The notes: generated from the letters alone by a model not told the origin. 64,000 nucleotides of DNA from Deltaproteobacteria bacterium (GCA_016186995.1 JACPKQ010000010.1:1-64000), one strand, 5' to 3'; positions 2 to 54,823 are shown, counted from the first letter of the stretch. Numbers and translations are program-made.

Positions 2-109
2 GAAGGGGAGGATCCACACCGGGCGGAGGGGCCCCTGAGGAACCTCCAGGCCATCAAGAACTTAAGCTATAGAGACATGAAGAGAAAGCGGCTTGACCGG
101 GAGGTCTAA
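2..109 (+). CDS. 3' end of an unidentified ORF (partial)
   Basis: A reading frame open from the window edge ends at the TAA at 107-109 and gives about 35 residues ending KRKRLDREV. By my count the first 110 bases are about 57% G+C, far above the neighbouring genes. I do not recognise the protein. The last bases also carry the -35 and spacer of the predicted glpK promoter. It may be the tail of a real gene, a foreign fragment, or chance. Confidence 0.3.
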   Translation, partial: EGEDPHRAEGPLRNLQAIKNLSYRDMKRKRLDREV

Positions 110-121
110 CTTTCCTATAAA
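93..121 (+). promoter_or_regulatory. Predicted sigma70 promoter of glpK
   Basis: The -35 TTGACC (93-98) and -10 TATAAA (116-121) are separated by 17 nt. The ATG of glpK follows only 6 nt after the -10, so transcription should begin at or next to the start codon and there is no room for a Shine-Dalgarno site. Confidence 0.6.
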
Positions 122-127
122 AAGTTC

Positions 128-1591
128 ATGATTCTAGCCATTGACCAAGGAACAACAGGCACAACTGCTCTTCTTATTGATAAAGATATTCATATTATTG
201 ATAAAGTGACTGTCGATTTTCCACAAATCTTTCCACAATCAGGCTGGGTAGAACATAATTTAAACGACATTTGGCAATCAACCCTTCTTGCCATTCAAAA
301 ACTTTTAGAAAAAACAAAAATAAATCCAAAAAAAATTGACGCTATTGGCATCACAAACCAAAGAGAAACAACTTGTGTATGGAATCAAAAAACAGGGAAA
401 CCACTCCATAATGCCATTGTATGGCAATGCAGAAGATCAGCTTCTTTTTGTAACAAGCTAAAAAAGGAGGGGCTTAATCCTTTTTTTCAAAAAAAGACGG
501 GTTTATTACTCGATGCTTATTTTTCAGGAACAAAAATAAACTGGCTTTTAAAAAATGTTTCTAAAACAAAAGAAAAAAATGCTGTTTTTGGAACTATTGA
601 TAGTTTTCTTATTTCAAAATTAACAAACAATGAAGTCCATATTACAGACGTGTCTAACGCTTCCAGAACACTTCTTATGAACATTAAAACTTTAGAGTGG
701 GATGATGAACTTTGTAAAATTTTAAAAATTCCAAAAGATAAACTTCCCCACATTAAATCAAACTGCGAAATATATGGAAAAACAAAAAATGTAGCCATTT
801 TGCCAGATGGTATCCCCATTTCTTCAGCTGTGGGGGACCAACAGGCCGCTCTTTTTGGACAAGCTTGTTTCAAAGAAAACGAAGCTAAATGTACTTATGG
901 AACAGGCTCTTTTTTCCTTTTAAATACAGGAAAAAAACCTGTTTTTTCAAAAAATAATCTTCTGACAACTGTAGCGTGGCACATGAAAAATAAAACAACC
1001 TATGCTTTAGAAGGGAGTGTTTTTATTGCAGGTGCTGCGGTTCAGTGGTTAAGAGACGGACTTAAAATCATTCGATCATCCAAAGAAATTGAAGAACTTG
1101 CCAAAAAAGTACCCACCTCAGAAGAGGTAGTTTTTGTACCAGCCCTAACAGGCTTAGGAGCTCCCTATTGGAACCAAGATGCTCGAGGCGCTTTTTACGG
1201 ACTCACCCGTGGTACAACTCAATCCCATATAGCACGAGCAACCCTTGAAGCCATTGCCTTTCAAAACTACGATCTTGTTAAAACCATGGAAAAAGATACA
1301 AAAAAAACCATTTCTATTCTTAGGGTGGATGGTGGAGCTTCTGCTAACAACCTTCTTATGAATTTTCAAGCAGGACTTCTTAATATTCCTCTTTCTAGAC
1401 CAGAATCACTTGAATCCACTGCCCGTGGTGCTGCACTTTTAGCTGGGCTTGCTATTGGTTATTGGAACGATCTTAAAGAAATCGCCAAAAAATCAAAAAC
1501 CGCAACCCTTTTCAAACCAAAAATGAAAGAAAAAGAAAGAAAACAACATCTTTCAAAATGGCACAAAGCTATTCAAAGAACACTCACCTAA
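128..1591 (+). CDS. glpK: Glycerol kinase
   Basis: This cytoplasmic FGGY-family kinase phosphorylates glycerol to sn-glycerol 3-phosphate with ATP. At 487 residues it is close to the usual ~500. The N-terminal phosphate-binding motif DQGTTGTTALLID starts at residue 6. NQRETTCVWN near residue 77 matches the conserved glycerol-contacting Arg-Glu segment, and YGTGSFFLLNTG lies near residue 257. The C-terminal domain contains the DGGASANN nucleotide-binding motif. The start has no Shine-Dalgarno sequence but sits 6 nt after a good -10 element. No glpF or glpD neighbour is visible, so the gene looks monocistronic. Confidence 0.95.
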   Translation: MILAIDQGTTGTTALLIDKDIHIIDKVTVDFPQIFPQSGWVEHNLNDIWQSTLLAIQKLLEKTKINPKKIDAIGITNQRETTCVWNQKTGKPLHNAIVWQCRRSASFCNKLKKEGLNPFFQKKTGLLLDAYFSGTKINWLLKNVSKTKEKNAVFGTIDSFLISKLTNNEVHITDVSNASRTLLMNIKTLEWDDELCKILKIPKDKLPHIKSNCEIYGKTKNVAILPDGIPISSAVGDQQAALFGQACFKENEAKCTYGTGSFFLLNTGKKPVFSKNNLLTTVAWHMKNKTTYALEGSVFIAGAAVQWLRDGLKIIRSSKEIEELAKKVPTSEEVVFVPALTGLGAPYWNQDARGAFYGLTRGTTQSHIARATLEAIAFQNYDLVKTMEKDTKKTISILRVDGGASANNLLMNFQAGLLNIPLSRPESLESTARGAALLAGLAIGYWNDLKEIAKKSKTATLFKPKMKEKERKQHLSKWHKAIQRTLT

Positions 1592-1636
1592 GCACACTCA
1601 AGTTCTTGAAATGGCACCATGAACAACCTTGGTTCT

Positions 1637-1692
1637 GAGTAGGGAGGGTGTTTTGTTTCCTGAACGTGCAACAAAACACCCAGTCCCTACTC
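1637..1692. repeat. Long imperfect hairpin downstream of glpK
   Basis: The arm at 1637-1656 (GAGTAGGGAGGGTGTTTTGT) is the reverse complement of 1671-1692 apart from a 2-nt bulge, with a 14-nt loop. There is no T-run after it, so it is not a textbook intrinsic terminator, though it could protect or end the glpK transcript. Confidence 0.7.
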
Positions 1693-1748
1693 TCTCATGG
1701 ATATGTCAGATCTTTTTTCCCTTCAAAACATACTAAGTAACTTTATTA

Positions 1749-1844
1749 TGTCACCCTGACCCCGGACTTGATCCGGGGGAAGGGTATAATACGAATTATA
1801 TTCTTCGCTTCGCTCAGAATGACAAAAGAACGCTCAGAATGACA
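1749..1844. repeat. Cluster of dispersed-type palindromic repeats
   Basis: At 1749-1778 there is a repeat with the inverted arms CCCGGA/TCCGGG. At 1800-1824 lies a unit whose reverse complement reads TGTCATTCTGAGCGAAGCGA and onward, followed by a truncated second copy at 1831-1844 (CGCTCAGAATGACA). Units of both kinds are known as dispersed intergenic repeats in many bacterial genomes. They fill much of the 508-bp gap between glpK and yqeY, in which I see no gene. Confidence 0.65.
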
Positions 1845-1863
1845 AAGAATTCGAATTTATGTG

Positions 1864-2025
1864 AAAAAATGGTTACTGTCTGAAGCGGAAATAAAGCGCA
1901 GCACACGGTTTGTAAATATTCAAAACTGTGCATCCCGGACAGTGCTTTAGCACTTACGGGATTAATGAAGAATTCATGTGGAACAACTACAGCGAGCCAT
2001 GTAGCGAAAGATAGTAACCATTTTT
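1864..2025. repeat. Element with 13-bp terminal inverted repeats
   Basis: AAAAATGGTTACT (1865-1877) is exactly complementary to AGTAACCATTTTT (2013-2025). Inside is a second hairpin at 1932-1962 with arms ATCCCG/CGGGAT and AGTGCT/AGCACT. The ~160-bp unit contains no ORF worth calling and looks like a MITE-type or structured-RNA element. Confidence 0.5.
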
Positions 2026-2063
2026 AAGAACTTAAGGTTATCATTAAGAGGGGTGACAAAATG

Positions 2064-2091
2064 TTGTGTGCGTATTATTTCCTGCTATAGT
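2064..2091 (+). promoter_or_regulatory. Predicted promoter of yqeY
   Basis: A -10 TATAGT (2086-2091) is preceded 16 nt upstream by a TTGTGT (2064-2069). The ATG at 2100 is 8 nt after the -10, predicting an almost leaderless mRNA. Confidence 0.45.
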
Positions 2092-2099
2092 AGATAAAT

Positions 2100-2555
2100 A
2101 TGTCGCAACTTAAAAAGAAAATCGAAGAACAATACGTTGCTGCTGTAAAAGGCAAAGATGCTTTTTCTGTTTCTGTGTTTCGTCTTATACGCGCCGCTAT
2201 TAAAAATAAAGAAATTGATACACGCAAACCCTTGAACGAAGATAAAGACATTATTGATATCATTAAGAAAATGATGAAACAAAACGCCGAATCTTTAGAA
2301 CAATTTCAAAAAGGTAAAAGAGCTGATTTAGTAGAAAAAACTCAAAAAGAAATCTCACTCCTTCAAACTTTTCTTCCAAAACAACTAAGCAAAGAAGAAC
2401 TTAAGAAAAAAATTCAAGCAACCATTACTCAAACAGGAGCCTCTTCTTTAAAAGATATGGGAAAAGTCATACAAGAGGTTTCAAAAAACTTCGGATCTCA
2501 AGCTGATATGAAAGAAGTAAGCTCTATCGTCCGCGATCTTTTACCTAAGGCTTAG
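2100..2555 (+). CDS. yqeY: GatB/YqeY domain protein
   Basis: At 151 residues this is the usual length for the stand-alone YqeY family, which resembles the tRNA-binding tail domain of the amidotransferase subunit GatB. Family features seen are the N-terminal SQLKKKIEEQYVAAVKGKD helix, the VFRLIRAAIKNKEID segment near residue 27 and the LLQTFLPKQLS motif near residue 87. The tail has the typical DMGKVIQEV...GSQADMKEVSSIV organisation. Family members are often near rpsU/dnaG, but not here. The precise biochemical role of the family is unclear; a tRNA-related function is inferred from homology. Confidence 0.9.
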   Translation: MSQLKKKIEEQYVAAVKGKDAFSVSVFRLIRAAIKNKEIDTRKPLNEDKDIIDIIKKMMKQNAESLEQFQKGKRADLVEKTQKEISLLQTFLPKQLSKEELKKKIQATITQTGASSLKDMGKVIQEVSKNFGSQADMKEVSSIVRDLLPKA

Positions 2556-2568
2556 AGAAACAACTGTT

Positions 2569-2889
2569 TTATTTCCAACCAGCAAGTTTAAGAATATCAA
2601 CTTTTTTGAATCTATAGTCTTTACCTACTTTAGTGTATTTAACTTTACCTTCTTTAATTCTACGTCTCATGGTTGATTCAGAAAGCCCCATGAATTGACA
2701 TACCTCTCGAAGAGTAAGAAGAGCTGGGCTAGTAAAAAGCTTCATTGAGTCAGTAATATCAATCCCAATAACGTGACCTTTTTTGTCATAACGAACTATA
2801 ATACCTTCTTTATATTCTGACTTCGCCTCCACTTCATCTGTAAAATCAATAGAGAGATAATCAACTTCTTTATTATGATGAACTTTCAT
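2569..2889 (-). CDS. DUF2283 protein with C-terminal HTH; predicted antitoxin
   Basis: This 106-residue protein appears to be a fusion. Residues 1 to about 50 (HHNKEVDYLSIDF, then GIIVRYDKKGHVIGIDI) match the DUF2283 pattern of small beta-rich proteins. Residues ~58-103 form an excisionase/MerR-type winged helix (TLREVCQFMGLSESTMRRRI, then VKYTKVGKDYRFKKVDIL). The start overlaps the stop of the upstream DUF4258 gene by 4 nt (ATGA), so the two are translationally coupled. DUF4258/DUF2283 pairs are known as predicted type II toxin-antitoxin modules. The HTH would supply the autoregulatory function. The role is inferred from pairing and domains. Confidence 0.75.
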   Translation of the reverse strand: MKVHHNKEVDYLSIDFTDEVEAKSEYKEGIIVRYDKKGHVIGIDITDSMKLFTSPALLTLREVCQFMGLSESTMRRRIKEGKVKYTKVGKDYRFKKVDILKLAGWK

Positions 2890-3128
2890 TTTACCACCTC
2901 AAAATTTATTAAAACAGTTAACACCTCACATAATTTTCTTTTTTTCCGAACGACTACTGCAGCTATCATATTATCTTTTCTCAATTTCATTTTTTTATAA
3001 AAAATATATTTATCCTTTGATTGCTTAATTGTTCCATCAGGGTCAGTTAAAACAAACTCCACCTCTTGGGTTGAAACGTTTCTTTGAACCATGCGCTGAA
3101 CAGCATGAGAACTGTACTTAATCTCCAT
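2886..3128 (-). CDS. DUF4258 protein; predicted toxin
   Basis: This 80-residue basic protein has DUF4258 hallmarks: SSHAVQRMVQRNVS at residues 5-18, a short aspartate-containing turn (LTDPDGTIKQSKDKYIFYK), and a C-terminal strand pair ending in LCEVLTVL. The family has a small RelE/BrnT-like fold and is usually beside a DUF2283 or HTH protein, as here (4-nt overlap with the downstream gene). Ribonuclease activity is plausible but unproven. There is no Shine-Dalgarno upstream of the ATG; a near-consensus promoter lies 18-46 nt upstream. Confidence 0.75.
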   Translation of the reverse strand: MEIKYSSHAVQRMVQRNVSTQEVEFVLTDPDGTIKQSKDKYIFYKKMKLRKDNMIAAVVVRKKRKLCEVLTVLINFEVVK

Positions 3129-3145
3129 ATTTATTTATAAACTAA

Positions 3146-3185
3146 ATATTATAACTAGTCAATAACTTGTCAATATCTAGTCAAA
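3146..3185 (-). promoter_or_regulatory. Promoter and three-copy operator of the TA pair
   Basis: Reading the minus strand, -35 TTGACA (3168-3173) and -10 TAATAT (3146-3151) are 16 nt apart; a TATAAT overlaps the latter. Three copies of a 10-mer related to ACTWGTCAAT (3154-3163, 3165-3174, 3176-3185) repeat every 11 bp, one helical turn, and cover the -35. This is the arrangement expected of an autoregulatory operator bound by the HTH antitoxin. Confidence 0.6.
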
Positions 3186-3211
3186 TAAATTTCTGGAATA
3201 AGTGCTTTACG

Positions 3212-3241
3212 CCCCTAACCACTATATCTTGTGGTTAGGGG
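3212..3241. terminator. Perfect 11-bp hairpin beyond the secreted-protein gene
   Basis: CCCCTAACCAC (3212-3222) pairs perfectly with GTGGTTAGGGG (3231-3241) across an 8-nt loop. It lies 15 bp beyond the stop of the minus-strand gene ending at 3257 and just upstream of the TA operator. There is no U-tract, so terminator function is tentative. Confidence 0.45.
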
Positions 3242-3256
3242 GAACACTAATATACA

Positions 3257-3721
3257 CTAGCGGCAATCTTCGATGTGTCTTTCTCCAACCAAAAGAACTC
3301 TATTGTGTGAAAATTGAAACCCTCGAATCATTCCATCTACCGTTTCATCAAGATGAACAATACAAGCCGTTCCTTCTGTATTGGGCCGAACATGTTTTGT
3401 AAGAATGATTTCAAAATTTATCTTCTCAACATCTGGATTATTTTGAATAACATCTTCTGGTAACATAGTTTCATAAGTAGCCAGACAAGGCGCCCCCTCC
3501 CCTGTGTTTCGATGGTCTAAAATGGTAACATCAGCCAATTCCGGCACAAGCACCTTTACGACAGGCGAAACGTACTCAGCGCGTGATAGTTTAAGTTTTG
3601 TTGTAGAAATATCCACATTAAGCTCCACAGTTCTTTTTGAAAGAACCACGGAGCCTGCATTGGCTACAGCCACAGACATGACATAAACAACAAGCCCAAC
3701 AAACAGTTTTTTATTTTTCAT
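3257..3721 (-). CDS. Small secreted protein of unknown function
   Basis: This 154-residue protein begins with a clear Sec signal peptide (MKNKKLFVGLVVYVMSVAV, then ANA-GS as a probable cleavage site near residue 22). The mature part is mostly alternating hydrophobic/polar and probably beta-rich, with three cysteines. I recognise no family. The start is well supported by AAGGAGG about 10 nt upstream. It is divergent from the LysR gene at 3814 with a 92-bp shared control region, so the LysR protein is a candidate regulator. Periplasmic or secreted location is inferred from the leader. Confidence 0.75.
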   Translation of the reverse strand: MKNKKLFVGLVVYVMSVAVANAGSVVLSKRTVELNVDISTTKLKLSRAEYVSPVVKVLVPELADVTILDHRNTGEGAPCLATYETMLPEDVIQNNPDVEKINFEIILTKHVRPNTEGTACIVHLDETVDGMIRGFQFSHNRVLLVGERHIEDCR

Positions 3722-3765
3722 TTTTCTAAGACCTCCTTATTTAAGTTAGTTATATCTTCTGTTAT

Positions 3766-3807
3766 ATAAATAAGTAAAATTGATTTTATTTATTATTGTG
3801 ATAGGTA
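3766..3807 (+). promoter_or_regulatory. lysR promoter with overlapping dyad
   Basis: TTGATT (3780-3785) and TAGGTA (3802-3807) are 16 nt apart and the lysR ATG follows 6 nt later. An imperfect palindrome with core TAAAAT-tg-ATTTTA spans 3766-3796. LysR-type proteins commonly bind such AT-rich dyads between divergent genes, so this is a candidate autoregulatory site also serving the gene at 3257-3721. Confidence 0.45.
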
Positions 3808-3813
3808 AAAGCT

Positions 3814-4680
3814 ATGCTTCCAAATGCTCAAGATTTAAAATATTTCATTGAGGTTTCAAAAACACTTAACCTTACAAGGGCTTCGGAACGATTAGGAATT
3901 AGCCAACCCTCTTTGAGTGTTTCTATCCAAAGGCTTGAAAACAATATAGGGGTTCCACTTCTTATTCGAGGCAAAAAAGGTGTCGCCCTTACACAAGCGG
4001 GGCAAGCGCTTTTAACACAAGCTCACAATATTATTGATTCGTGGGAAAACCTTAAAGAAAAGGCAACAAGCACTTATATGCACATCGCAGGGCAATACAC
4101 CATTGGGTGCCATCCTTCTGTTGCTCTTTATTCACTTCCACATATTATTCCTTCTCTTTTAGAAAACTATCCACAACTTGAAATTAAATGTGTTCATGAC
4201 CTTTCACGTCGAATGACAGAATCAGTCATCAGTATGCAGGTCTCTGTTGGCATTGTAGTCAATCCTGTACCACACCCAGATCTGGTTATTCAAAAACTCT
4301 GTAGCGACATCGTTACTTTTTGGAAAGGAAAAGAAAATAACCCCCTACAAGATCCTTATTCTGGAAAAGGTGTTTTAATTTGCGACCCCGATCTTATTCA
4401 AACACAAGATTTACTTAAAAAAATAAAGAAAACAAAAATTAAATATCGAACCATTCTTTCTTCTTCAAATCTTGAAGTCATTGCAGAACTTGTGGCATCG
4501 GGAAGTGGTTTTGGAATTATTCCAGGAAAAGTTGCAAAACGACAATCCTATATGAAACTACAAAAAATCAAACGGGCTCCTGTTTTTTATGATGAAGTGT
4601 GCGCAATTTATAGAATTGAAAACAAAAACGTTCCAGCGATTCAAATAATTACTCAAAAACTTAAAAAAGCTCTTATATAA
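3814..4680 (+). CDS. LysR-family transcriptional regulator
   Basis: The 288-residue protein has the N-terminal winged helix at residues 1-60 (LKYFIEVSKTLNLTRASERL, then ISQPSLSVSIQRLEN) and the LLIRGKKGVALTQAG segment typical of LysR proteins. From residue ~90 it has a periplasmic-binding-like effector domain (YTIGCHPSVALYSLPHIIPS; ASGSGFGIIPGKVAKRQ). The effector is not predictable. The divergent neighbour is the secreted protein at 3257-3721, a likely target. It converges on radA with a 4-nt gap. Confidence 0.92.
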   Translation: MLPNAQDLKYFIEVSKTLNLTRASERLGISQPSLSVSIQRLENNIGVPLLIRGKKGVALTQAGQALLTQAHNIIDSWENLKEKATSTYMHIAGQYTIGCHPSVALYSLPHIIPSLLENYPQLEIKCVHDLSRRMTESVISMQVSVGIVVNPVPHPDLVIQKLCSDIVTFWKGKENNPLQDPYSGKGVLICDPDLIQTQDLLKKIKKTKIKYRTILSSSNLEVIAELVASGSGFGIIPGKVAKRQSYMKLQKIKRAPVFYDEVCAIYRIENKNVPAIQIITQKLKKALI

Positions 4681-4684
4681 TAAA

Positions 4685-6040
4685 TCAGAAAAAAAGCTCG
4701 AGAGCCTTTTCGATATTAGAAACCCCCACGAGTTCAATACCCTTGATAGATTTTAGCTTAGAAAGGTTTTTTTGAGGAAGAACACATTTTTTAAACCCTA
4801 GTTTTTTGGCCTCGCCCACCCGTACATCAACGCCTCGAACAGCCCTGAGCTCTCCAGAAAGCCCCACCTCACCAATAGCTAAAACATCGTGTGGTAAAGA
4901 TACATTTTTAAAACTACTCATCACAACTAAAAGTGTTCCTAAATCAGAAGCGGTTTCTTGAATTTTAATACCACCCGCAACATTCACATAAACATCATGC
5001 CCAGCTAAAATAATGCCTGAAGATTTTTCTAAAACAGCCAATAAAAGAGAAACTCTTTGTGGATCAAGCCCTAACGTTGTACGTCTTGGGGCTGCAAAAC
5101 TAGTTTGCGAAACAAGCGCTTGAAGCTCCACCAAAATGGGTCGCGTTCCTTCCAAAGAAGAAACAACAATAGAGCCAGGGTTTTTTTCTTCACTTCTTTC
5201 AGATAAAAAGAAACTAGAAGGGTTATTAATTTCCACAAGTCCCTTTTCTTGCATTTCAAAAACTCCAATTTCATGGGTGGATCCAAACCTATTTTTAATG
5301 GATCTTAAAATTCGAAATGAAAGTGTTGGATCAGAATCAAAATAAAGAACCGTATCAACCATGTGTTCTAAAACACGAGGTCCTGCAATAGAGCCTTCTT
5401 TTGTAACATGCCCCACAATAAAAGTTGCAATATTATTTTTCTTAGCCAAATACATAAGTCGCGCTGCACAGTGCCTAACTTGGCTTACGGTACCTGGCGC
5501 TGATTCAAGTTCTTGAGAAAAAAGTGTTTGAATAGAATCAATAACAAGAATATGGGGTTTTAATTTCTCACAATGAGACATTACTTTTTCAAGCCCGGTT
5601 TCAGAAAGAACAAAAAGGTTTTTTTGTGAAATCCCTAAGCGCTCTGCCCTCATTTTGACTTGTAATAAAGACTCTTCAGCAGAAACGTACAAAACATTTA
5701 GTTTTTGCTTTGTGGTATTTCCCACTACTTGTAAAAGAAGGGTTGATTTACCAATACCCGGATCTCCACCTACAAGCGTTAAAGAACCTTGTACAATTCC
5801 CCCACCCAAAACTCGATCGAGCTCTGCAATGCCGGTTGTCATTCGGGTTTCTTCCTCACAATTGATTTGATCTAATGTAATAGGCTTATCTTGAGAGAAT
5901 TCTAGATTCTGATGTTTCTTGGGAGCTTCAATAATATCTTCATAAAAAGTGTTCCACTCATTACAAGATGGACACTTTCCCATCCACTTTTGAGTATTAT
6001 AACCACAACCCGAGCAACAATATTGAGTGTTCTTTTTCAT
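4685..6040 (-). CDS. radA: DNA repair protein RadA/Sms
   Basis: RadA is a RecA-like ATPase promoting branch migration during recombinational repair. From the chosen ATG there is a four-cysteine zinc finger (CSGCGYNTQKWMGKCPSC), Walker A GGDPGIGKST, the RadA-specific KNRFG motif (IKNRFGSTHEIGVFEM) and a C-terminal Lon-protease-like domain (VNVAGGIKIQETASDLGTLL; AIGEVGLSGELRAV). I start at 6040 rather than 6061: MKKNTQYCCSGCGY is the usual beginning, and a promoter (TAGGAT at 6048-6053) would overlap the upstream ATG. The product is about 451 residues. It is divergent from queE. Confidence 0.95.
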   Translation of the reverse strand: MKKNTQYCCSGCGYNTQKWMGKCPSCNEWNTFYEDIIEAPKKHQNLEFSQDKPITLDQINCEEETRMTTGIAELDRVLGGGIVQGSLTLVGGDPGIGKSTLLLQVVGNTTKQKLNVLYVSAEESLLQVKMRAERLGISQKNLFVLSETGLEKVMSHCEKLKPHILVIDSIQTLFSQELESAPGTVSQVRHCAARLMYLAKKNNIATFIVGHVTKEGSIAGPRVLEHMVDTVLYFDSDPTLSFRILRSIKNRFGSTHEIGVFEMQEKGLVEINNPSSFFLSERSEEKNPGSIVVSSLEGTRPILVELQALVSQTSFAAPRRTTLGLDPQRVSLLLAVLEKSSGIILAGHDVYVNVAGGIKIQETASDLGTLLVVMSSFKNVSLPHDVLAIGEVGLSGELRAVRGVDVRVGEAKKLGFKKCVLPQKNLSKLKSIKGIELVGVSNIEKALELFF

Positions 6041-6047
6041 TAAAACC

Positions 6048-6075
6048 ATCCTACCAGCCAAAGTTGTATTTTCAA
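6048..6075 (-). promoter_or_regulatory. Predicted promoter of radA
   Basis: On the minus strand, TTGAAA (6070-6075) and TAGGAT (6048-6053) are separated by 16 nt, with the radA ATG 7 nt after the -10. The site overlaps the upstream region of the divergent queE gene, whose own -10-like TATGCT (6081-6086) sits 6 nt before its ATG. Confidence 0.5.
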
Positions 6076-6092
6076 TGTTATATGCTAATAAA

Positions 6093-6722
6093 ATGTGCGT
6101 GCTTCAGGTTTCTGAAATTTATTACAGTATTCAAGGAGAATCTTCATTTCGAGGAGAGCCTTGTATTTTTATTCGCCTTACAGGGTGCGATCTTCGCTGC
6201 AGCTGGTGTGATACAGAATATTCTTTTTACGGTGGTAAAAAAATGAATATTTCTAAAATTTTGAATGAAGTTTCCAGATTTCCTTGTAAACTTGTTGAAA
6301 TTACAGGTGGAGAACCCCTTTTACAAAAAGAGACTCCAAATCTTTCTCAAAGCCTTTTAAATGAAGGATATACAGTACTTTTAGAAACAGGGGGGCATAA
6401 AGATATTCAAAATATTCCTAAAGAAGTAATTACTGTTATGGATATTAAAACCCCTAGTAGTGGAGAAGCAGAAAAAAATAATTGGGACAATTTAAAATAT
6501 CTAAAGCCACACGATGAAATTAAATTTGTGATTCAAGACAGAAACGATTTTGAGTGGGCAAAAAAAACTGTCCAAGAAAAATTAAAAAAAATAGAAAACC
6601 TCATTCATTTTTCTCCTGTGTTCAAAAAAATGAACCCCCACACACTTTCAAAATGGATTTTAAACGAAAATCTTCCTGTTAAGTTTGGAACTCAACTACA
6701 TAAAGAATTAGGACTGCCCTAA
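6093..6722 (+). CDS. queE: 7-carboxy-7-deazaguanine synthase (radical SAM)
   Basis: QueE converts 6-carboxytetrahydropterin to 7-carboxy-7-deazaguanine in the queuosine pathway. The N-terminus has the expected VSEIYYSIQGES and the radical-SAM Cx3Cx2C cluster motif (TGCDLRCSWCDTEYSFYGG) near residue 35. VEITGGEPLLQKE near residue 70 is the SAM-binding GGE motif. The ATG at 6093 is preferred because upstream starts add only residues absent from the family and would overlap the radA promoter. The product is 209 residues, within family range. No other que gene is in the window. Confidence 0.93.
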   Translation: MCVLQVSEIYYSIQGESSFRGEPCIFIRLTGCDLRCSWCDTEYSFYGGKKMNISKILNEVSRFPCKLVEITGGEPLLQKETPNLSQSLLNEGYTVLLETGGHKDIQNIPKEVITVMDIKTPSSGEAEKNNWDNLKYLKPHDEIKFVIQDRNDFEWAKKTVQEKLKKIENLIHFSPVFKKMNPHTLSKWILNENLPVKFGTQLHKELGLP

Positions 6723-6732
6723 ATTAAGATAA

Positions 6733-6762
6733 TTGACGCTTTAACTTGTACCATGCTACACA
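6733..6762 (+). promoter_or_regulatory. Predicted promoter of the SDR epimerase gene
   Basis: TTGACG (6733-6738) and TACACA (6757-6762) with an 18-nt spacer; the ATG at 6772 is 9 nt after the -10, again implying a leader of only a few nucleotides. Confidence 0.4.
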
Positions 6763-6771
6763 AGAATATCT

Positions 6772-7761
6772 ATGAAGTTAAGAGCTTTTGTCACAGGCGG
6801 GCACGGTTTCGTAGGAAGTCATCTTGTTGAACGGCTTCTTAAAGAAAACTTTGATGTCACTTGTCTTATAAAACCATCAAGCAACTTAAAATGGATTAAT
6901 ACCCTTCCTTTAAAATATTTTTATGGTGATTTAAGAGACTCTGAATCGTTAAAAAAAATATCACAAGATTTTGATTATGTTTTTCATGTAGCTGGACTTA
7001 TCCAAGCAAAGTCAGAAGAAGAGTTTTTTTCTGTGAATGAAAAAGGAACACTCCATTTAATAAACGCCTGTAAATCTACACAAAAAAATTTAAAAAGATT
7101 TATTCTTATAAGCTCTATTGCAGCTTCTGGCCCTGCTGCCGCTTTAAAACCTAGAGGTGAAGAAGATGTAGAAAACCCTGTAAGTACCTATGGCAAAAGT
7201 AAACTTGCTGGGGAAAAGGCTTTAAAAGAAAATGCGGGCACAATTGCCTACACCATTCTTAGGCCACCTGCTATCTATGGCCCACGTGATCGTGGTATTT
7301 TTTTCTTTTTTGAAGCAATCAAAAAATTAAAAGGGCTTCCTATTTTTAAACCTAAAAATAGATATTACAGCCTCATCCATGTTCATGATTTAGTAGATGC
7401 CATTTATAAATCTGCTATTTCCGAGAATGCAGCAAATCAAACTTTTAATATTGTGAATGAAAAACACTATCCACTTGAAGAAATCGTTCAAAAAATTTCG
7501 TTTTCTTTAAAAACAAAACCTCGCGTGTATTATATTCCACGCCCATTTGTTTACGGTGCCTCTTTTATTTCTGATATTATTACAAAATTAACAAAAAAAG
7601 CTTTTCATTTTAACTCCATGAAAATGCCAGATCTAGAAGCGCAGTACTGGATTTTTTCTGCTGAAAAAGCAAAAAAAGAATTGGGCTGGTCAAATAACAT
7701 TCCACTTGAAAAAGGGCTTGCGGAAACGACCCACTGGTATCAAAAATTAGGCTGGCTTTAA
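6772..7761 (+). CDS. NAD-dependent epimerase/dehydratase (extended SDR)
   Basis: The 329-residue protein has an N-terminal Rossmann motif VTGGHGFVGSHLVERLL (GxxGxxG), the FHVAGLIQA segment, a catalytic serine region (LISSIAASG) and the YGKSK catalytic Tyr-Lys pair near residue 142. The following RPPAIYGPRDRG motif is typical of extended SDRs acting on nucleotide sugars or sterol/hopanoid-like substrates. It resembles the dihydroflavonol reductase/HpnA subgroup, but the substrate is not predictable. It is monocistronic and convergent with atpC. Confidence 0.85.
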   Translation: MKLRAFVTGGHGFVGSHLVERLLKENFDVTCLIKPSSNLKWINTLPLKYFYGDLRDSESLKKISQDFDYVFHVAGLIQAKSEEEFFSVNEKGTLHLINACKSTQKNLKRFILISSIAASGPAAALKPRGEEDVENPVSTYGKSKLAGEKALKENAGTIAYTILRPPAIYGPRDRGIFFFFEAIKKLKGLPIFKPKNRYYSLIHVHDLVDAIYKSAISENAANQTFNIVNEKHYPLEEIVQKISFSLKTKPRVYYIPRPFVYGASFISDIITKLTKKAFHFNSMKMPDLEAQYWIFSAEKAKKELGWSNNIPLEKGLAETTHWYQKLGWL

Positions 7762-7771
7762 AATCTATCTA

Positions 7772-10453
<2,682 letters not shown>

Positions 10454-10458
10454 TGTAA

Positions 10459-14894: not shown

Positions 14895-15719
14895 TTAAGA
14901 GCTGATTGGCGGTTGTAAAACTTGTTCCTGTGTTTTAGAAACTAGTTTTGTTTCAACCTTTGGCTCTTGTCTTTTTAATAACTCCTCCGCCAAACTTAAA
15001 TAAGAAGAAGAACCCTTTGATTCGATATCATAAAGTAGTATAGGCTTTCCATGACTAGGGCTTTCCGAAAGTCTAATATTTCTTGGGATCATAATATCAA
15101 AAACGTTCTCCTTAAAATGAGCCCGAACCTCTGAAACAACCTGGTGAGACAACTTATTTCTTGGATCATACATAGTGAGCAAGATCCCTTCTCGTCTTAA
15201 GTTTTGGTTTAGCCCTTTTTTGATAAGTTGTACTGTGTTTACAAGCTTTGAAAGTCCTTCCATTGCAAAGTATTCACACTGCATAGGTACTAAGTAGCTG
15301 TGTGCGGCCACTAAAGCATTAATGGTCAAAAGTCCAAGAGAGGGGGGGCAATCAATAAAAATATAGTCATAGTCATTAAGTATAGGCTCCAAATACTCTT
15401 TAAGTTTGTTTTCCCTACCAAGCACTGAAACAAGCTCAATCTCAACTCCAACAAGGCCCTGATCCGAGGGAATAATATCAAGAAACTGAAGCTCAGTCTT
15501 TATGATTGCCTCTTTAGCTGGAATTTTTCCTATCATGACGTGATAAAGGTTTTTATCAAATCCTGCAATCCCAAGTCCGCTTGTTGCATTGGCCTGGGAA
15601 TCCATATCTATAAGAAGGGTTTTCTTCTCAGAAATAGCAATAGAAGCAGCAAGGTTAATAGCTGTTGTTGTCTTTCCAACGCCACCTTTTTGATTTGCGA
15701 TAGCAATAATCTTTGCCAT
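14895..15719 (-). CDS. parA: Chromosome partitioning ATPase ParA
   Basis: ParA/Soj ATPase with the deviant Walker A motif NQKGGVGKTTTAINLAA at the N-terminus, a Walker B region (YDYIFIDCPPSLGLLTINAL) and the signature YEFAMEGL-like segment CEYFAMEGLSKLVNTV. I start at MAKIIAIANQKGG (15719); the upstream start adds seven hydrophobic residues not expected in Soj proteins and would overlap the promoter. The product is 274 residues. It heads the parA-parB-bacM-atp block and is divergent from the DsbA-like gene. Confidence 0.96.
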   Translation of the reverse strand: MAKIIAIANQKGGVGKTTTAINLAASIAISEKKTLLIDMDSQANATSGLGIAGFDKNLYHVMIGKIPAKEAIIKTELQFLDIIPSDQGLVGVEIELVSVLGRENKLKEYLEPILNDYDYIFIDCPPSLGLLTINALVAAHSYLVPMQCEYFAMEGLSKLVNTVQLIKKGLNQNLRREGILLTMYDPRNKLSHQVVSEVRAHFKENVFDIMIPRNIRLSESPSHGKPILLYDIESKGSSSYLSLAEELLKRQEPKVETKLVSKTQEQVLQPPISS

Positions 15720-15728
15720 TAAGTAAAA

Positions 15729-15756
15729 AAAGTAAATCAAATTTGTTAATAGTCAA
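15729..15756 (-). promoter_or_regulatory. Predicted promoter of parA
   Basis: TTGACT (15751-15756) and TACTTT (15729-15734) are 16 nt apart on the minus strand; the parA ATG follows 9 nt after the -10. Weak -10, so moderate support. Confidence 0.4.
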
Positions 15757-17066: not shown

Positions 17067-17723
17067 TTAACAAATAGAATAGATAGCTCTTGGATATTTT
17101 TGATCAAAGGCGTGTTCTATTTCTTTGTTAAGATGGTAAATATTTTCAAAAGTGTTTTCTTGTTCAGCTTTGTTGAAAGATCTTCCTGTATATAAAAATA
17201 TTTTTCCATTTTCTGATAAAAATGCTTTTAGAAAATCGATCATTTCTTTATTCGGTTTAATAGCTCTAAAAAGAATAATGTCCACTTTTTTACCCTTTAA
17301 AAAAAAATCTAAATCCGCCCTAGCTTTCCAATCTATATGAATATTCGTTGAATAGGCTTTTTTAAAACCCAACGTTCTCATGACTTGTTTTTGAAAAAAT
17401 ACTTTTTTTTCTTTTGCATCCACCGAAAAGAGCACCAAAGAAGGATTTGCGATTTTTAAAGGTATCCCTGGAAACCCAGCTCCAGAGCCAATATCCAAAC
17501 ATGTTCTTTTTCCTTGTATAAGTGAAAAACCAAGGAGCGAGTCTGCAAAGTGTTTTTGAATGATTTCTTCTTCTTCCTCTATACTTGAGAGATTAATCTT
17601 GACCACCCACTTTTTATAAATATGCAGGTATTGAAAAAACTGTTTCAATTGTTTTTCATCAAGAGAAACGTTTATCTCTGAGCATAATTTTAAAAGTTTT
17701 TTAGAAAATTCTTCAAAGCTCAT
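17067..17723 (-). CDS. rsmG: 16S rRNA (guanine-N7) methyltransferase RsmG
   Basis: This 218-residue SAM-dependent enzyme methylates G527 of 16S rRNA. The SAM motif I is CLDIGSGAGFPGIPLKIANP, preceded by the family segment KKWVVKINLSSIEEEEEI. It lies in the mnmG/rsmG/parAB neighbourhood as in many bacteria, but here a 350-bp structured gap separates it from mnmG, and it is convergent with the DsbA-like gene. Confidence 0.95.
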   Translation of the reverse strand: MSFEEFSKKLLKLCSEINVSLDEKQLKQFFQYLHIYKKWVVKINLSSIEEEEEIIQKHFADSLLGFSLIQGKRTCLDIGSGAGFPGIPLKIANPSLVLFSVDAKEKKVFFQKQVMRTLGFKKAYSTNIHIDWKARADLDFFLKGKKVDIILFRAIKPNKEMIDFLKAFLSENGKIFLYTGRSFNKAEQENTFENIYHLNKEIEHAFDQKYPRAIYSIC

Positions 17724-17731
17724 TATAACTA

Positions 17732-17760
17732 TTTATACACCACCACCCCCTCAGAACCAA
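17732..17760 (-). promoter_or_regulatory. Predicted promoter of rsmG
   Basis: TTGGTT (17755-17760) and TATAAA (17732-17737) with a 17-nt spacer; the ATG at 17723 is 8 nt after the -10. The -35 lies inside a 15-mer that recurs near 1625-1639. Confidence 0.5.
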
Positions 17761-39812: not shown

Positions 39813-40721
39813 TTAGAGAAGAATTTTAATGGTCGCTTTTTCTCTTTGTTTTTGAATAAACTCGTGCTGAACGCTCAAAATTTTTTCTTGAAAAAGATTT
39901 TGATGAATCTGCTCTTTTGCTTGGCTTGGAAGATCGATGTGAATAATATGATAACCATTTTGGGTTTTAAAAAGAGAGCTAATGTTTCCTATTTTCATTT
40001 TATTAATTTGTTTTTCAAACTCAGGAATCATTTGTCCTTTTGTAAAAACGCCCAAATCACCACCCGATGAGGCAAAAGGTCCTTCAGAATATTTTTTTGC
40101 TAAATCTTCAAACGGTGCCCCCTTTTTAAACTCATCAGTTACTTTTTGAGCTAGTTCAGTATTCTTTGTTTTAAAAAAAACCTGTTTAACTTGAAATTGC
40201 TTTAAATTTTTAGCAATGTTGGGGTGGGTTGCATAGAAGTTATAAATATCTTTATCAGTTATTTTAACTTTGGAAATTTCTGGACCCAAAAGTTTTCTAA
40301 TTTCAATTTCGCCCTTAAGTCTTTTTTTATATTGAGCAATGGTGAAGCCTTCTTTTTTAATAGCTTCTTCAAATTCTTTTTCTGTCATTCCAAATCGTTC
40401 AACAGTTTCTTTAAAGTAAGAATCAACTTCTTTTTGTGAGGCACTAAGGCCTTTTTCTTGAAGGGTTTGGTTTAAGAGTTCATCATTAATAAGAAGTTCT
40501 AAAATGGCGGAATTTGATTTAAGGGCTTCTTTTTCAAAGGGAAGCTTTTCAGATTTTTTCTTTAGCTCATTTTTTTTAATCCTTATATCTGAATAAAGAA
40601 TAACTTTATTGTTAACCTGAGCTATAATTCGATCAACAAGCGTATCCTGCTTGGTTTTAGCCAAGGCGCCATCAGAAAGTAAAAGTGCTAAAAAAAGAGT
40701 TAAAAACTGTATTTTTCTCAT
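39813..40721 (-). CDS. surA: Periplasmic chaperone/peptidyl-prolyl isomerase SurA
   Basis: From ATG 40721 the 302-residue product has a signal peptide (KIQFLTLFLALLLSDGALA). A SurA N-terminal chaperone region follows (VDRIIAQVNNKVILYSDIRI), then a parvulin domain at ~170-270 (ASSGGDLGVFTKGQMIPEFE; NGYHIIHID). The upstream in-frame residues are not signal-like and cover the promoter, so I reject the longer start. It has one parvulin domain rather than E. coli SurA's two. It probably assists outer-membrane protein folding. Confidence 0.88.
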   Translation of the reverse strand: MRKIQFLTLFLALLLSDGALAKTKQDTLVDRIIAQVNNKVILYSDIRIKKNELKKKSEKLPFEKEALKSNSAILELLINDELLNQTLQEKGLSASQKEVDSYFKETVERFGMTEKEFEEAIKKEGFTIAQYKKRLKGEIEIRKLLGPEISKVKITDKDIYNFYATHPNIAKNLKQFQVKQVFFKTKNTELAQKVTDEFKKGAPFEDLAKKYSEGPFASSGGDLGVFTKGQMIPEFEKQINKMKIGNISSLFKTQNGYHIIHIDLPSQAKEQIHQNLFQEKILSVQHEFIQKQREKATIKILL

Positions 40722-40728
40722 AAAAATG

Positions 40729-40757
40729 AGAATAGTAAGTCTATCCTTTTTTGTAAA
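40729..40757 (-). promoter_or_regulatory. Predicted promoter of surA-pdxA-pmm-uvrA
   Basis: TTTACA (40752-40757) and TATTCT (40729-40734) with a 17-nt spacer; surA ATG is 7 nt after the -10. The rest of the 40758-41140 gap holds palindromic repeats and no credible gene. Confidence 0.5.
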
Positions 40758-42890: not shown

Positions 42891-42891
42891 C

Positions 42892-43737: not shown

Positions 43738-43754
43738 GACAAAATGCTCTCATA

Positions 43755-47102: not shown

Positions 47103-47106
47103 TCAT

Positions 47107-48063: not shown

Positions 48064-48071
48064 ATCCATTT

Positions 48072-50246: not shown

Positions 50247-50255
50247 TTCATTTTC

Positions 50256-52052
50256 TTATTCGACTGTAACACTTTTTGCAAGGTTTCGAGGTTGATCCAC
50301 ATCTGTGCCCTTAAATCGTGCCATGTAATAGGCGAAAAGTTGAATGGGAATAGAATAAAGAAAAGGATTAATATGCCATTGTGCCAGAGGCAAGATAATA
50401 TTATCGTCTGCAATTTTAATAGGCTTTTGTGAGATAGCAATCACGATACCTTCTCTCGCTTTTACTTCTTCAACGTTACTCATCATTTTTTCAAAAATAC
50501 TATCATTTTGAAGAAGTGCTATAACAGGCAGCTCTTGATCTACAAGGGCAATAGGTCCATGTTTCATTTCTCCTGCAGGATAACCATGGGCTTGAATATA
50601 GGCAATTTCTTTAAGTTTTAGTGCCCCCTCTAATGCTATAGGATAAAGAATGTCTCTTCCCATATAAAGTGCTGCCAGTTTTTGATAATATTTAGAAGCA
50701 ATATTCTTAATTTTTTCAGCTTGGGAGAGAACCTGTTCCATGTAGGAAGGAATTTTTGTAAGTTCTAAAATCTCTTTTGAAACATTTTTATTTTTTTGGG
50801 CTAAATAAAGAGAAAGTAAATTAAAAATAAGAATTTGTGTTGTAAAAGCTTTTGTTGAGGCAACGCCAATTTCTGGGCCAGCCTCTGTGTAAATAATCTG
50901 ATCTGCAGCTCTTGCTATAGAACTTTCCTTGGCGTTGCAAATAGCAAGAGTTTTAATTCCACGCTCTTTGGCTAATTGGAGAGCTGCAAGGCTATCAGCT
51001 GTTTCACCTGATTGTGAAGTAACAATGAGAAGATCATTTTCTTTAAGAATAGGATTTCGATATCGAAACTCGGAAGCTAAATCGATTTCAGCTCGAATAT
51101 TCGCAAATTTTTCTAAGAGATATTTTCCTATAAGAGAAGCATGCCAAGCAGTTCCACATGCAATAAGATAAATAGTTTGAACATTATTAAAAAAAGCTTC
51201 TTCTAAAGGAAGAAGGACTTTATCGTGATTTTCTGAGAGATTTCCAGAAAGGGTGTGAATAATAGCTTGAGGTTGTTCGTAAATTTCTTTTAGCATGAAA
51301 TGTTCAAACCCAGCTTTTTCTATCGTTTGGGCTGACCATGTAATTGTTGTTATTTTTTTTGAGATGTGCTCCCCCTTCATATTTTGAAACTCAACACGAT
51401 GTGGGGTTAAGATAGCAGTTTCATAATCATCCAGATAAGCGACTTGTTTTGTAAAAGAAAGAAGTGCTGGAATATCTGAAGCAAGAAAATATTCTTTTTT
51501 GCCAATACCAATAACAAGAGGAGAAGCTTTTTTAGCTGCAACAAGTTTTTCAGGCTCAAGCTCATTCATAACGACAATAGCATAAGAGCCTTGCAACTTC
51601 CGTAAAGCTTTTTGAACAGATTCTTCTAGAGTTTTAGATTTTTCAGATTCTTTTTTAATAAGGCATGCTATAACTTCCGTATCTGTTTCTGACTGAAATG
51701 TATAGCCCTGAGCACGCAATTCTTTTTTAAGTTCTATGTAGTTTTCGATAATACCATTATGAACAACAGTAATATTTCCTACTTGATGTGGGTGGGCATT
51801 AATAGTTGAGGGTTTTCCGTGTGTAGCCCAACGTGTATGACCCAGCGCTATCGTGCTTTTGATGCTGACGTTTTTAATTTGGTTTTCAAGTTGTGCAACT
51901 TTACCCTTACACTTTTCAATATGAGTTTTTCCATTTTCAAGCCAGGCAACACCAGCTGAATCATATCCTCTGTATTCAAGGTGTTTTAAACCCGTGAGAA
52001 GCACTTCCTTGGGATCGCGAAAAGTACCAATATAACCAACAATGCCACACAT
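50256..52052 (-). CDS. glmS: Glucosamine-fructose-6-phosphate aminotransferase
   Basis: The 598-residue enzyme makes glucosamine-6-phosphate. The N-terminal Cys1 nucleophile is in MCGIVGYIG, and the glutaminase domain contains HTRWATHGKPS. Two SIS isomerase domains follow (IACGTAWHASLIGKYLLEK; TSQSGETADSLAALQLAKER), ending in DQPRNLAKSVTVE. It is 3 nt downstream of glmU; together they supply UDP-GlcNAc. Confidence 0.97.
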   Translation of the reverse strand: MCGIVGYIGTFRDPKEVLLTGLKHLEYRGYDSAGVAWLENGKTHIEKCKGKVAQLENQIKNVSIKSTIALGHTRWATHGKPSTINAHPHQVGNITVVHNGIIENYIELKKELRAQGYTFQSETDTEVIACLIKKESEKSKTLEESVQKALRKLQGSYAIVVMNELEPEKLVAAKKASPLVIGIGKKEYFLASDIPALLSFTKQVAYLDDYETAILTPHRVEFQNMKGEHISKKITTITWSAQTIEKAGFEHFMLKEIYEQPQAIIHTLSGNLSENHDKVLLPLEEAFFNNVQTIYLIACGTAWHASLIGKYLLEKFANIRAEIDLASEFRYRNPILKENDLLIVTSQSGETADSLAALQLAKERGIKTLAICNAKESSIARAADQIIYTEAGPEIGVASTKAFTTQILIFNLLSLYLAQKNKNVSKEILELTKIPSYMEQVLSQAEKIKNIASKYYQKLAALYMGRDILYPIALEGALKLKEIAYIQAHGYPAGEMKHGPIALVDQELPVIALLQNDSIFEKMMSNVEEVKAREGIVIAISQKPIKIADDNIILPLAQWHINPFLYSIPIQLFAYYMARFKGTDVDQPRNLAKSVTVE

Positions 52053-52055
52053 AAA

Positions 52056-53447
52056 TTATTTTTTTTGAAAACCTTTTATTTTCTTAAGTGTTTTGGCGTA
52101 GCCTTTAATATTCGTTTGTCGAGTGCGGGCAATAGCTAAATCATTTTCTGGGACATTTTTTGTAATAGTAGAGCCTGATCCAACGTAAGCATTTTTCCCA
52201 ATCTTAACTGGAGCTACAAGTTGAACGTCGCTTCCTATAAAAGCACCGTCACTGACTGTGGATTTATGTTTTTGAAAACCATCATAATTGCAGGTGATCA
52301 CACCACAACCAATATTAACATGCGCGCCGATATGAGCATCACCAAGATAGGATAAATGGTTTGCTTTAGAGTTTTTACCTAATGTCGTTTTTTTAAGTTC
52401 AACAAAATTTCCAACTCGAGCATTTTCTTCAACAATTGAAAGAGGTCTTAAATGAGCCATGGGCCCAACTGTTACATTCTTTTTAAGGGTACTTTCTTCA
52501 ATGACACTGCTTTGTTTAATATGACACCCCTCTCCAATTTCTGAGTTTTCTATAAAACAGTGACTTTCAACAATAGTATTTTTAGAAATTTTTGATTTCC
52601 CTTTAAGATGCGTATTTGGATGAATAGTAACATCGTTTTCAATCTCAACATCATTATCAATATAAATATTTTCTGAGTTAATAAGAGTAACCCCATTTAG
52701 CATGTGTTTTTCATTAATATTTTTTTGAATTTGAGAACGAATGAGTTCTAAGTCTTTTCTGTCATTAACCCCAAAGATCTCTAAGTTGTTTGAAGTTTTA
52801 TAAACATAAGCTTCTTCAGAAAAAGATACTAAATCTGTTAAATAGAATTCATTTTTTTTATTTTTATTACTAATATTTTTAATGGCGTGTTTTAGAAATG
52901 AAGATTTGACACAATAAATACCAGCATTAACTTCTTTAATGTGTTTTTCTTCAATTGAAGCATCTTTTTCCTCTACTATTTTGAAAACCTTATTGTGACC
53001 TGTTCGTATAATTCTTCCATAAGCGGGAGGTGTTTTAAACTCAGCTGAAATAAGAGAAATGTCTGCTCGGTTTTCCTCATGAAAAGAAATAAGTTTTTCA
53101 AGCGTTTCGTGGCGCAACAAAGGGGCATCGCCATTAATAATAAGTATATCATTTTCTCCTTTAAACTTAGCTAAGCCTGCTTTAACAGCATCAGCTGTTC
53201 CAAGTGCTTTTTTTTGAGGAGCAAAAATAATATTTTTAAAATATTTTTTAATAGAAGATTGAAGCTCTTCTTTTTTGTGCCCGACAACAACAATAATTTT
53301 ATGAATGCCTGCGTCTTGTAAAGCTTTCAAAGGATAAAAAATAAGAGGCCGCCCACAAACTTCATGAAGCGTTTTTTGTTTTTCAGATTTCATGCGCGTG
53401 GAAAGTCCAGCCGCAAGCACAAAAGCCGTAAGTTGTTTTCTTGGCAT
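52056..53447 (-). CDS. glmU: Bifunctional GlmU (uridyltransferase/acetyltransferase)
   Basis: The 463-residue enzyme makes UDP-GlcNAc. The N-terminal pyrophosphorylase motif is VLAAGLSTRMKSEKQKTLHE, with IINGDAPLL; the C-terminal left-handed beta-helix hexapeptides and acetyltransferase core read SYLGDAHIGAHVNIGCGVIT then CNYDGF. A promoter lies at 53457-53485 just before the ATG. Co-oriented with glmS. Confidence 0.96.
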   Translation of the reverse strand: MPRKQLTAFVLAAGLSTRMKSEKQKTLHEVCGRPLIFYPLKALQDAGIHKIIVVVGHKKEELQSSIKKYFKNIIFAPQKKALGTADAVKAGLAKFKGENDILIINGDAPLLRHETLEKLISFHEENRADISLISAEFKTPPAYGRIIRTGHNKVFKIVEEKDASIEEKHIKEVNAGIYCVKSSFLKHAIKNISNKNKKNEFYLTDLVSFSEEAYVYKTSNNLEIFGVNDRKDLELIRSQIQKNINEKHMLNGVTLINSENIYIDNDVEIENDVTIHPNTHLKGKSKISKNTIVESHCFIENSEIGEGCHIKQSSVIEESTLKKNVTVGPMAHLRPLSIVEENARVGNFVELKKTTLGKNSKANHLSYLGDAHIGAHVNIGCGVITCNYDGFQKHKSTVSDGAFIGSDVQLVAPVKIGKNAYVGSGSTITKNVPENDLAIARTRQTNIKGYAKTLKKIKGFQKK

Positions 53448-53456
53448 AGGGGAGAA

Positions 53457-53485
53457 AGATTAACGAGTTCTTATACTTACGTCAA
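53457..53485 (-). promoter_or_regulatory. Predicted promoter of glmU-glmS
   Basis: TTGACG (53480-53485) and TAATCT (53457-53462) with a 17-nt spacer; the glmU ATG follows 9 nt after the -10. It lies just after the ssb stop. Confidence 0.5.
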
Positions 53486-53491
53486 TGTCCT

Positions 53492-53947
53492 CTAGAAAGG
53501 AATGTCATCATCTGTGGCGCCAAAAGAAGGCTCTGGATTTTTGTCAAAAACGGAAGCCGCTGTTGTCGTGGCATCATCTTGCATATCAGCATGAGGAGAT
53601 TTTCCGTTTTCTCCGGAGCCCTTTCCAAGAAACTGCACTGTTTGTCCCACAACTTCTGTTGTGTAGCGTTTCTGCCCTTCTTTATCTTCCCAAGAACGAG
53701 TTTGTATACGTCCTTCAAGGTAAACTTGGCGCCCCTTGCTTAAATACTGTCCGCAAAGTTCTCCGAGCTTTCCCCACACAACAACTCGATGCCATTCTGT
53801 GCGTTCTTGTCGCTCACCTTCTTGGGTTGCCCAGCTTTCACTTGTTGCAATACTAAAACGAGCCATTGCTTTGCCATTTTTAGTATAGCGAACTTCTGGG
53901 TCTCCACCGAGATGACCTAATAGAATAACTTTATTAACTCCGCTCAT
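53492..53947 (-). CDS. ssb: Single-stranded DNA-binding protein
   Basis: The 151-residue SSB has an OB fold starting [34 protein letters not shown] and [11 protein letters not shown], a flexible linker and the acidic tail DDDIPF that binds partner proteins. I start at MSGVNKVIL (53947): a longer ATG at 53959 falls inside the -10 hexamer of its predicted promoter. First gene of the minus-strand run through mfd. Confidence 0.96.
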
Positions 53948-53954
53948 GAAGCCC

Positions 53955-53984
53955 ATCATAGGAGGAAGCTTTCTCGATCGTCAA
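53955..53984 (-). promoter_or_regulatory. Predicted promoter of ssb
   Basis: TTGACG (53979-53984) and TATGAT (53955-53960), 18-nt spacer; the ATG at 53947 is 7 nt after the -10. The alternative ATG at 53959 overlaps the -10, supporting the downstream start. Confidence 0.55.
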
Positions 53985-54017
53985 GCGCTTTTATTAAAGC
54001 ATGTTAAAAAGGTGGCC

Positions 54018-54046
54018 TGGACAATAAAGGCGCTTAAAACTATAGT
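54018..54046 (+). promoter_or_regulatory. Predicted promoter of the TPR-aroQ-acc operon
   Basis: TGGACA (54018-54023) and TATAGT (54041-54046) with an exact 17-nt spacer; the ATG at 54053 is 6 nt beyond the -10, predicting a leaderless mRNA. Confidence 0.55.
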
Positions 54047-54052
54047 GTTTGT

Positions 54053-54823
54053 ATGGGGTCCCCACGATTTAAAGAACTTGATGTCCTTTTAAAAGTGTAT
54101 AGAAAAAATCCTCAGTCAAAAATTTTTGCGCCCATTGCAGAAATGTATCGAAAAAACGGATTAGTGGATGAGGCAAAAGCATTGTGTGAACGAGGACTTT
54201 CTTTTCACCCAGATTATGTGGCAGGCAAAATGGCTCATGCAGCGGCTCTTGTGGATAACGGAGAGCTTAAAGAAGCTCTTTCAGTGCTTCAAGAAGTTAT
54301 TGTTGAAAGACCACACAGTATTTTAGCCCACACACTTCTTATAAAAATATATACTAAGTTGAGTTTAGAAGAGAAATTACAGGAAACAGAAGAACATCTT
54401 TCAAAAATCAACCCTTATTTTTCAAAATTAATAAAAACAGAAAAACCTCAAAAAACAAAAACCACAACGAGAACTGCAAGTATTGAAGGCTTTCAAGTTC
54501 AATCTATTCATAATATTTTTTCTTCTGCAGAACCCCACGAAAAAGTATTAGCTCCTACACAAGGAGATAAAAAATATTATACTCTTTCATTAGCGCAAAT
54601 CTATGAGAAGCAAGGTCATTTTGATAAAGCACTTTATATTTATGAAGATCTTTGTAATCTTTATCCAGACAAGGAAGACTTTTTTCATAAAAAAGAAAGT
54701 TTAAAACAACAGCTAAAAAAACAAACCATTATTCCAAATCCTCCTTCTGAAGACGAAAGAGCCTCTGAAAGAGCTGTAGCGCTCCAAAACATACTCAAAA
54801 ATATTAAGGATGTTAAACCCTGA
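54053..54823 (+). CDS. TPR-repeat protein
   Basis: The 256-residue cytoplasmic-looking protein has no signal peptide. It has TPR-type helix pairs at both ends (FAPIAEMYRKNGLVDEAKAL; MAHAAALVDNGELKEALSVL; SLAQIYEKQGHFDKALYIYE) with a charged, lysine-rich linker near residues 125-165. Function unknown; it may be an adaptor. It is the first gene before aroQ-accB-accC. Confidence 0.75.
   Translation: MGSPRFKELDVLLKVYRKNPQSKIFAPIAEMYRKNGLVDEAKALCERGLSFHPDYVAGKMAHAAALVDNGELKEALSVLQEVIVERPHSILAHTLLIKIYTKLSLEEKLQETEEHLSKINPYFSKLIKTEKPQKTKTTTRTASIEGFQVQSIHNIFSSAEPHEKVLAPTQGDKKYYTLSLAQIYEKQGHFDKALYIYEDLCNLYPDKEDFFHKKESLKQQLKKQTIIPNPPSEDERASERAVALQNILKNIKDVKP

Follow-up and report, generated by a model that had tools for sequence, protein, structure and literature searches.

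The 64 000-nucleotide window analysed here (the whole stretch of DNA, positions 1–64000 of JACPKQ010000010.1) raises a simple question. TATAAT-like hexamers with TTGACA-like partners upstream lie a few nucleotides before the start codons of several of its genes: are these promoters, and would the mRNAs that they produce have any leader at all? A sequence-only reading had proposed that at least eleven genes share this architecture and that their transcripts begin at the AUG or no more than a few nucleotides away from it. Our analysis supports the idea that sigma-70-type promoters are set on start codons in this genome, very probably giving leaderless or near-leaderless mRNAs, mixed with genes led by Shine–Dalgarno (SD) sites.

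Candidate promoters in the window

The source assembly comprises 1.68 Mb in 30 contigs. We analysed the window (34.7% GC) and 20 further 20 kb stretches of the same genome (400 kb), amounting to about 28% of the assembly. Genes were called from coding potential alone with a simple caller of our own, which makes no use of upstream signals, and were sorted into first genes of operons (divergent, or preceded by a gap) and operon-internal genes. The raw base-frequency profile upstream of starts gave no clear signal; it is blurred because the position of the signal varies, and a two-box scan was therefore needed. TTGACA/TATAAT pairs with spacers of 15–19 nt were scored at every value of D, the number of nucleotides between the −10 box and the start codon, with dinucleotide shuffles, operon-internal genes and Bacilli loci as controls. 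The bit scores given for genes of the window come from a model whose training genomes were other members of the class. An Rfam search across the window returned no match.

The boxes of all eleven named promoters lie where the sequence-only reading had put them; eight are clear, parA is modest and lysR and radA are weak. The best score in the window, 9.1 bits, is that of a TPR gene (Pfam), with its site at 54018–54052 on the + strand: −35 TGGACA (54018–54023) and −10 TATAGT (54041–54046) are separated by 17 nt and 6 nt remain to the ATG at 54053. On the same strand glpK (93–127; 7.0 bits) has TTGACC (93–98), a 17 nt spacer and TATAAA (116–121), with 6 nt to the ATG at 128, and an SDR/epimerase gene (Pfam; 6733–6771; 6.3 bits) has TTGACG (6733–6738), an 18 nt spacer and TACACA (6757–6762), with 9 nt to the ATG at 6772. 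The site of yqeY (2064–2099, +; 4.6 bits) consists of TTGTGT (2064–2069), 16 nt, TATAGT (2086–2091) and 8 nt to the ATG at 2100.

Four further clear sites are on the − strand. That of ssb (53948–53984; 6.0 bits) combines TTGACG (53984–53979) and TATGAT (53960–53955) across an 18 nt spacer, 7 nt from the ATG at 53947. In surA (SurA domains, Pfam; 40722–40757; 5.1 bits) TTTACA (40757–40752) and TATTCT (40734–40729) are 17 nt apart and the ATG at 40721 follows after 7 nt. The same spacer is found in glmU (53448–53485; 4.7 bits), with TTGACG (53485–53480), TAATCT (53462–53457) and 9 nt to the ATG at 53447, and in rsmG (17724–17760; 3.4 bits, posterior 0.76), with TTGGTT (17760–17755), TATAAA (17737–17732) and 8 nt to the ATG at 17723. 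The modest site of parA (15720–15756, −; 2.6 bits, posterior 0.73) has TTGACT (15756–15751), 16 nt, TACTTT (15734–15729) and 9 nt to the ATG at 15719.

The lysR site (3780–3813, +) pairs a weak −35 TTGATT with TAGGTA over 16 nt, 6 nt from the ATG at 3814, and at 1.6 bits is unconvincing alone. For radA (6041–6075, −) the candidate −35 TTGAAA (6075–6070), a 16 nt spacer and TAGGAT (6053–6048), 7 nt from the ATG at 6040, reach 0.5 bits; the SD score of this ATG, 1.6 bits, is weak too. A similar −10 had been claimed for queE, but no two-box site at such a distance was found for starts at 6075 or 6093. We note that the 5′ regions of radA (4685–6061, −) and the divergent open reading frame at 6027–6722 (+; apparently the queE of the sequence-only reading) overlap, so that, provided that both starts are correct, the promoter of each gene must fall within or next to the 5′ end of the other.

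Enrichment over chance and the choice of ATG

Hexamers resembling TATAAT and TTGACA are common at 35% GC, and those near starts might simply have been picked out. The AT-richness of the genome speaks for such a chance origin, as does the weakness of two or three named cases (lysR, radA and queE). Outside the window, however, promoters at D 5–9 precede 23 of 182 first genes, versus 2.9 in dinucleotide shuffles (p = 3e-14), which refutes it and bears out the enrichment of −10 hexamers at this distance over shuffled controls of AT-rich DNA. Because the window's own genes were excluded, this enrichment does not depend on the choice of examples. With a stricter score at D 5–9 the figures outside the window are ten first genes versus 0.4 in shuffles, while of the operon-internal genes there only 1/110 has a promoter at this distance. 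Bacilli loci passed through the same pipeline gave 3/231 at D 5–9, with 6.8 expected, and their promoters peak at D 20–39. A peak at this distance is what is expected for SD-led genes.

The share of first genes with such promoters was estimated by a mixture model with background, leaderless-promoter and SD components. A fraction obtained by free EM fitting was rejected, since this procedure over-estimates it, returning about 0.3 even on shuffled DNA; the model was therefore trained only on other genomes, those of a related family (f2) within the class, and its parameters were fixed thereafter. The leaderless class then receives 46 of 205 first genes (22%), corresponding to 13% of all genes tested. 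None of 136 internal genes and none in four shuffled sets was so assigned, and only two or five genes were when the scan was slid 15 or 30 nt upstream. Among the 46 assigned genes D is 6–8 in 33 and 9–12 in 13; 29 have a 17 nt spacer. Free motif fitting in this genome returned TTGACA and TA...T with a 17 nt spacer at D 6–10. The start codon is ATG in 43/46 of the assigned genes and in 100/118 of the other first genes, a mild difference only. A pyrimidine occupies position −1 in 34/46; this differs from internal genes (p = 0.002) but not significantly from other first genes (p = 0.10).

The called starts might themselves be wrong. If the true start codons lay farther downstream, the promoters would serve SD-led genes whose 5′ ends had been over-called. 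Our caller relies on coding potential, and the longest-ORF starts of surA, ssb and parA had to be corrected by tens of nucleotides, which lends this alternative some weight. Against it, a signal of at least 3 bits is present at 48/325 in-frame ATGs versus 4/346 out-of-frame ATGs (ATGs of first genes no more than 90 nt from the called start; Fisher p = 3e-12), and the homology of glmU to distant orthologues begins at the same ATG. We therefore consider over-called starts highly improbable. The contrast between frames rules out that promoters are merely abundant near genes and shows that their placement follows the translated ATG. With so few hits in shuffles, internal genes, slid windows and out-of-frame ATGs, a chance origin has next to no probability.

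The same contrast has a practical side. The pattern had been said to resolve the starts of radA, surA and ssb. It does so for ssb, where the ATG at 53947 scores 6.0 bits versus −4.1 for the upstream ATG at 53959, and for surA, where the ATG at 40721 is 24 codons inside the longest ORF and the TTG start of that ORF scores −2.8; the in-frame test extends the principle generally, but radA is unconvincing. A near-ATG promoter may thus serve as a practical rule for placing starts in this lineage, in which gene finders based on SD sites will misplace some of them.

Leader length and Shine–Dalgarno sites

In sigma-70 promoters 6–7 nt separate the −10 box from +1. Because of this geometry, we infer a transcription start at or within a few nucleotides of the A of the ATG. 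RNA polymerase at ordinary housekeeping (sigma-70-type) promoters would start at this A or 0–4 nt before it, and the resulting mRNAs would be leaderless or nearly so and have no SD site. The exact leader length (0 versus 1–4 nt) is a prediction from promoter spacing, and since D spans 6 to 12 some of the predicted mRNAs may carry leaders of 1–5 nt. At most sites transcription could even start 3–8 nt upstream of the AUG, so that the mRNAs would have very short leaders and would not be strictly leaderless. The 13 of 46 genes with D 9–12 allow a few leader nucleotides with a standard discriminator, but at the modal D of 6–8 (33/46) the usual 6–7 nt would make the A of the ATG the +1 position. We regard short leaders at most sites as possible though doubtful, and even a leader of 5 nt would be too short for an SD site.

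The distribution of SD sites agrees with such transcripts. With promoters defined in a manner blind to SD sites, an SD core is present in 2/42 genes with a near promoter, compared with 12/42 genes whose promoter is farther away (p = 0.007) and 32/121 genes that have neither. The near promoter might nevertheless be real but minor, with most transcripts coming from an upstream promoter and carrying a normal leader. There is precedent in Sinorhizobium meliloti, in which 59/171 leaderless start sites are accompanied by another start site (PMC3616915). In the genome studied here, SD motifs are so rare in near-promoter genes that a longer leader would still be without one, and we judge a dominant upstream promoter to be unlikely.

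The reading that promoters set on start codons give leaderless or near-leaderless mRNAs is supported by their position (D = 6–10), their restriction to first genes, their association with in-frame ATGs, the depletion of SD sites and recurrence in relatives. For translation the 5′-terminal AUG would be bound directly by the 70S ribosome (or by the 30S subunit with IF2 and initiator tRNA), by analogy with other leaderless mRNAs; direct 70S binding at such an AUG is known from work in other bacteria (PMC9031893).

SD-led genes had been offered as a contrast. Strong SD scores are indeed found in the window for dnaN (5.7 bits) and atpE (6.0 bits), as well as for parB (6.3 bits). The model does not class atpA, also claimed as SD-led, as an SD gene, because its purine run abuts the ATG (gaggagcATG). 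The assembly itself (G000, rated 93% complete) contains no 16S rRNA gene and neither do those of three relatives (G001, G003 and G005), probably because rRNA operons are commonly lost when metagenome-assembled genomes are binned. The anti-SD (CCTCC) is intact in two other relatives, G002 and G011: GGATCACCTCCTTT. With SD-led genes in the genome itself and the anti-SD read from relatives, the system is most likely a mixed SD/leaderless one and not SD-less. In this mixed system about one-fifth of the first genes of transcription units would be leaderless, while internal genes and the other first genes would use an SD site or neither signal.

Known systems, relatives and glmU

Signals of this type have been described before. 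In Zheng et al. (2011), TANNNT, a −10-like motif about 10–12 bp upstream of starts, is reported in 207 of 953 bacterial genomes, and the TA-led genes of deltaproteobacteria are put at 8/33 genomes with an average of 15.8% (5.7–20.6%) of genes (PMC3160421). The −10-like signal near the start is the point of likeness, and the share found here, 13% of genes tested, is to be set beside those figures. By that account only 20 bp upstream were scored, whereas here a −35 box at 16–18 nt is seen as well; the accessible text holds no mention that we found of genomes of the present lineage. Leaderless transcription is predicted for 21.6% of bacterial species, according to the GeneMarkS-2 class as cited in a later paper (PMC9581028), and the present genome would fall in that class.

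In Mycobacterium tuberculosis, too, a sizeable fraction of genes has a promoter adjoining the start codon, and SD-led genes exist beside them (PMC3898074). Primary 5′ ends were mapped there, whereas our case is made from sequence only, with a −35 box and with starts that are almost all ATG. Among proteobacteria, mapped 5′ ends define mixed systems in Caulobacter crescentus, with 375 leaderless mRNAs or 9.6% of CDSs (PMC4117421), and in S. meliloti, with 171, all of which begin with AUG (PMC3616915); the present one belongs to another phylum and, again, is known from its DNA alone. A literature search for Bdellovibrionota together with leaderless genes found only one paper, on a soil metagenome, in which each is mentioned once. 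The predicted trait is real and lineage-wide, but its kind is already known from other bacteria, including former deltaproteobacteria. A poorly studied, mostly uncultured lineage thus appears to join the genomes that mix leaderless and SD translation, which for specialists is a useful confirmation rather than a surprise.

The near-start peak recurs in G001, of the same family (9/85 versus 1.9; 6 versus 0.3), in G002, of the same class (22/148 versus 3.2; 10 versus 0.6), and in G003–G007 (8/42 versus 1.1; 6 versus 0.1). Other families of the phylum show it less strongly. Control loci from Nitrospirae (L034–L106; 12/84 versus 4.1 at D 5–9) and Acidobacteria (L058–L102; 8/59 versus 2.4) also show an excess, which implies that near-ATG promoters are more widespread and not unique to the phylum.

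Random stretches of relatives yielded too few pairs for promoter orthology and targeted searches for orthologues were used instead. For ssb, glpK and yqeY the near-ATG arrangement is mostly not kept in relatives; that of glpK is not kept in the class, and some ssb orthologues have purine-rich AGGAGG-type sites. As these three genes are not leaderless throughout the class, we rejected the view that the trait is fixed for each gene. The predicted trait is conserved at the level of the genome, with turnover among individual genes.

The phylum is probably Bdellovibrionota. Searches by GlmU identity found no close named relative, and a quick tree built from GlmU places a named Bdellovibrionales sequence together with one genome of the same phylum at a support of 96; this placement is drawn from one gene, in whose tree the members of the phylum do not form one clade.

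At glmU the on-ATG promoter is kept in all readable orthologues of the class, although the proteins are only about 44–57% identical to the query, and it is found in 15/29 genomes of the phylum versus 2/76 named loci from other phyla. Leaderless initiation may be ancient in the phylum and under selection, having been kept at glmU since the phylum radiated while other upstream DNA diverged; we advance this tentatively and think it the less probable view. If it were true, a 5′-terminal AUG would be functionally required at glmU, for example by coupling the supply of cell-wall precursors to the state of the ribosome or initiator tRNA. This promoter, recognisable at the ATG in roughly half of the sampled genomes of the phylum, offers a compact test of selected versus incidental leaderlessness. 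The glmU loci with an on-ATG promoter are L110–L120, L124, L128 and L135, and their GlmU proteins are only about 40–57% identical to the query.
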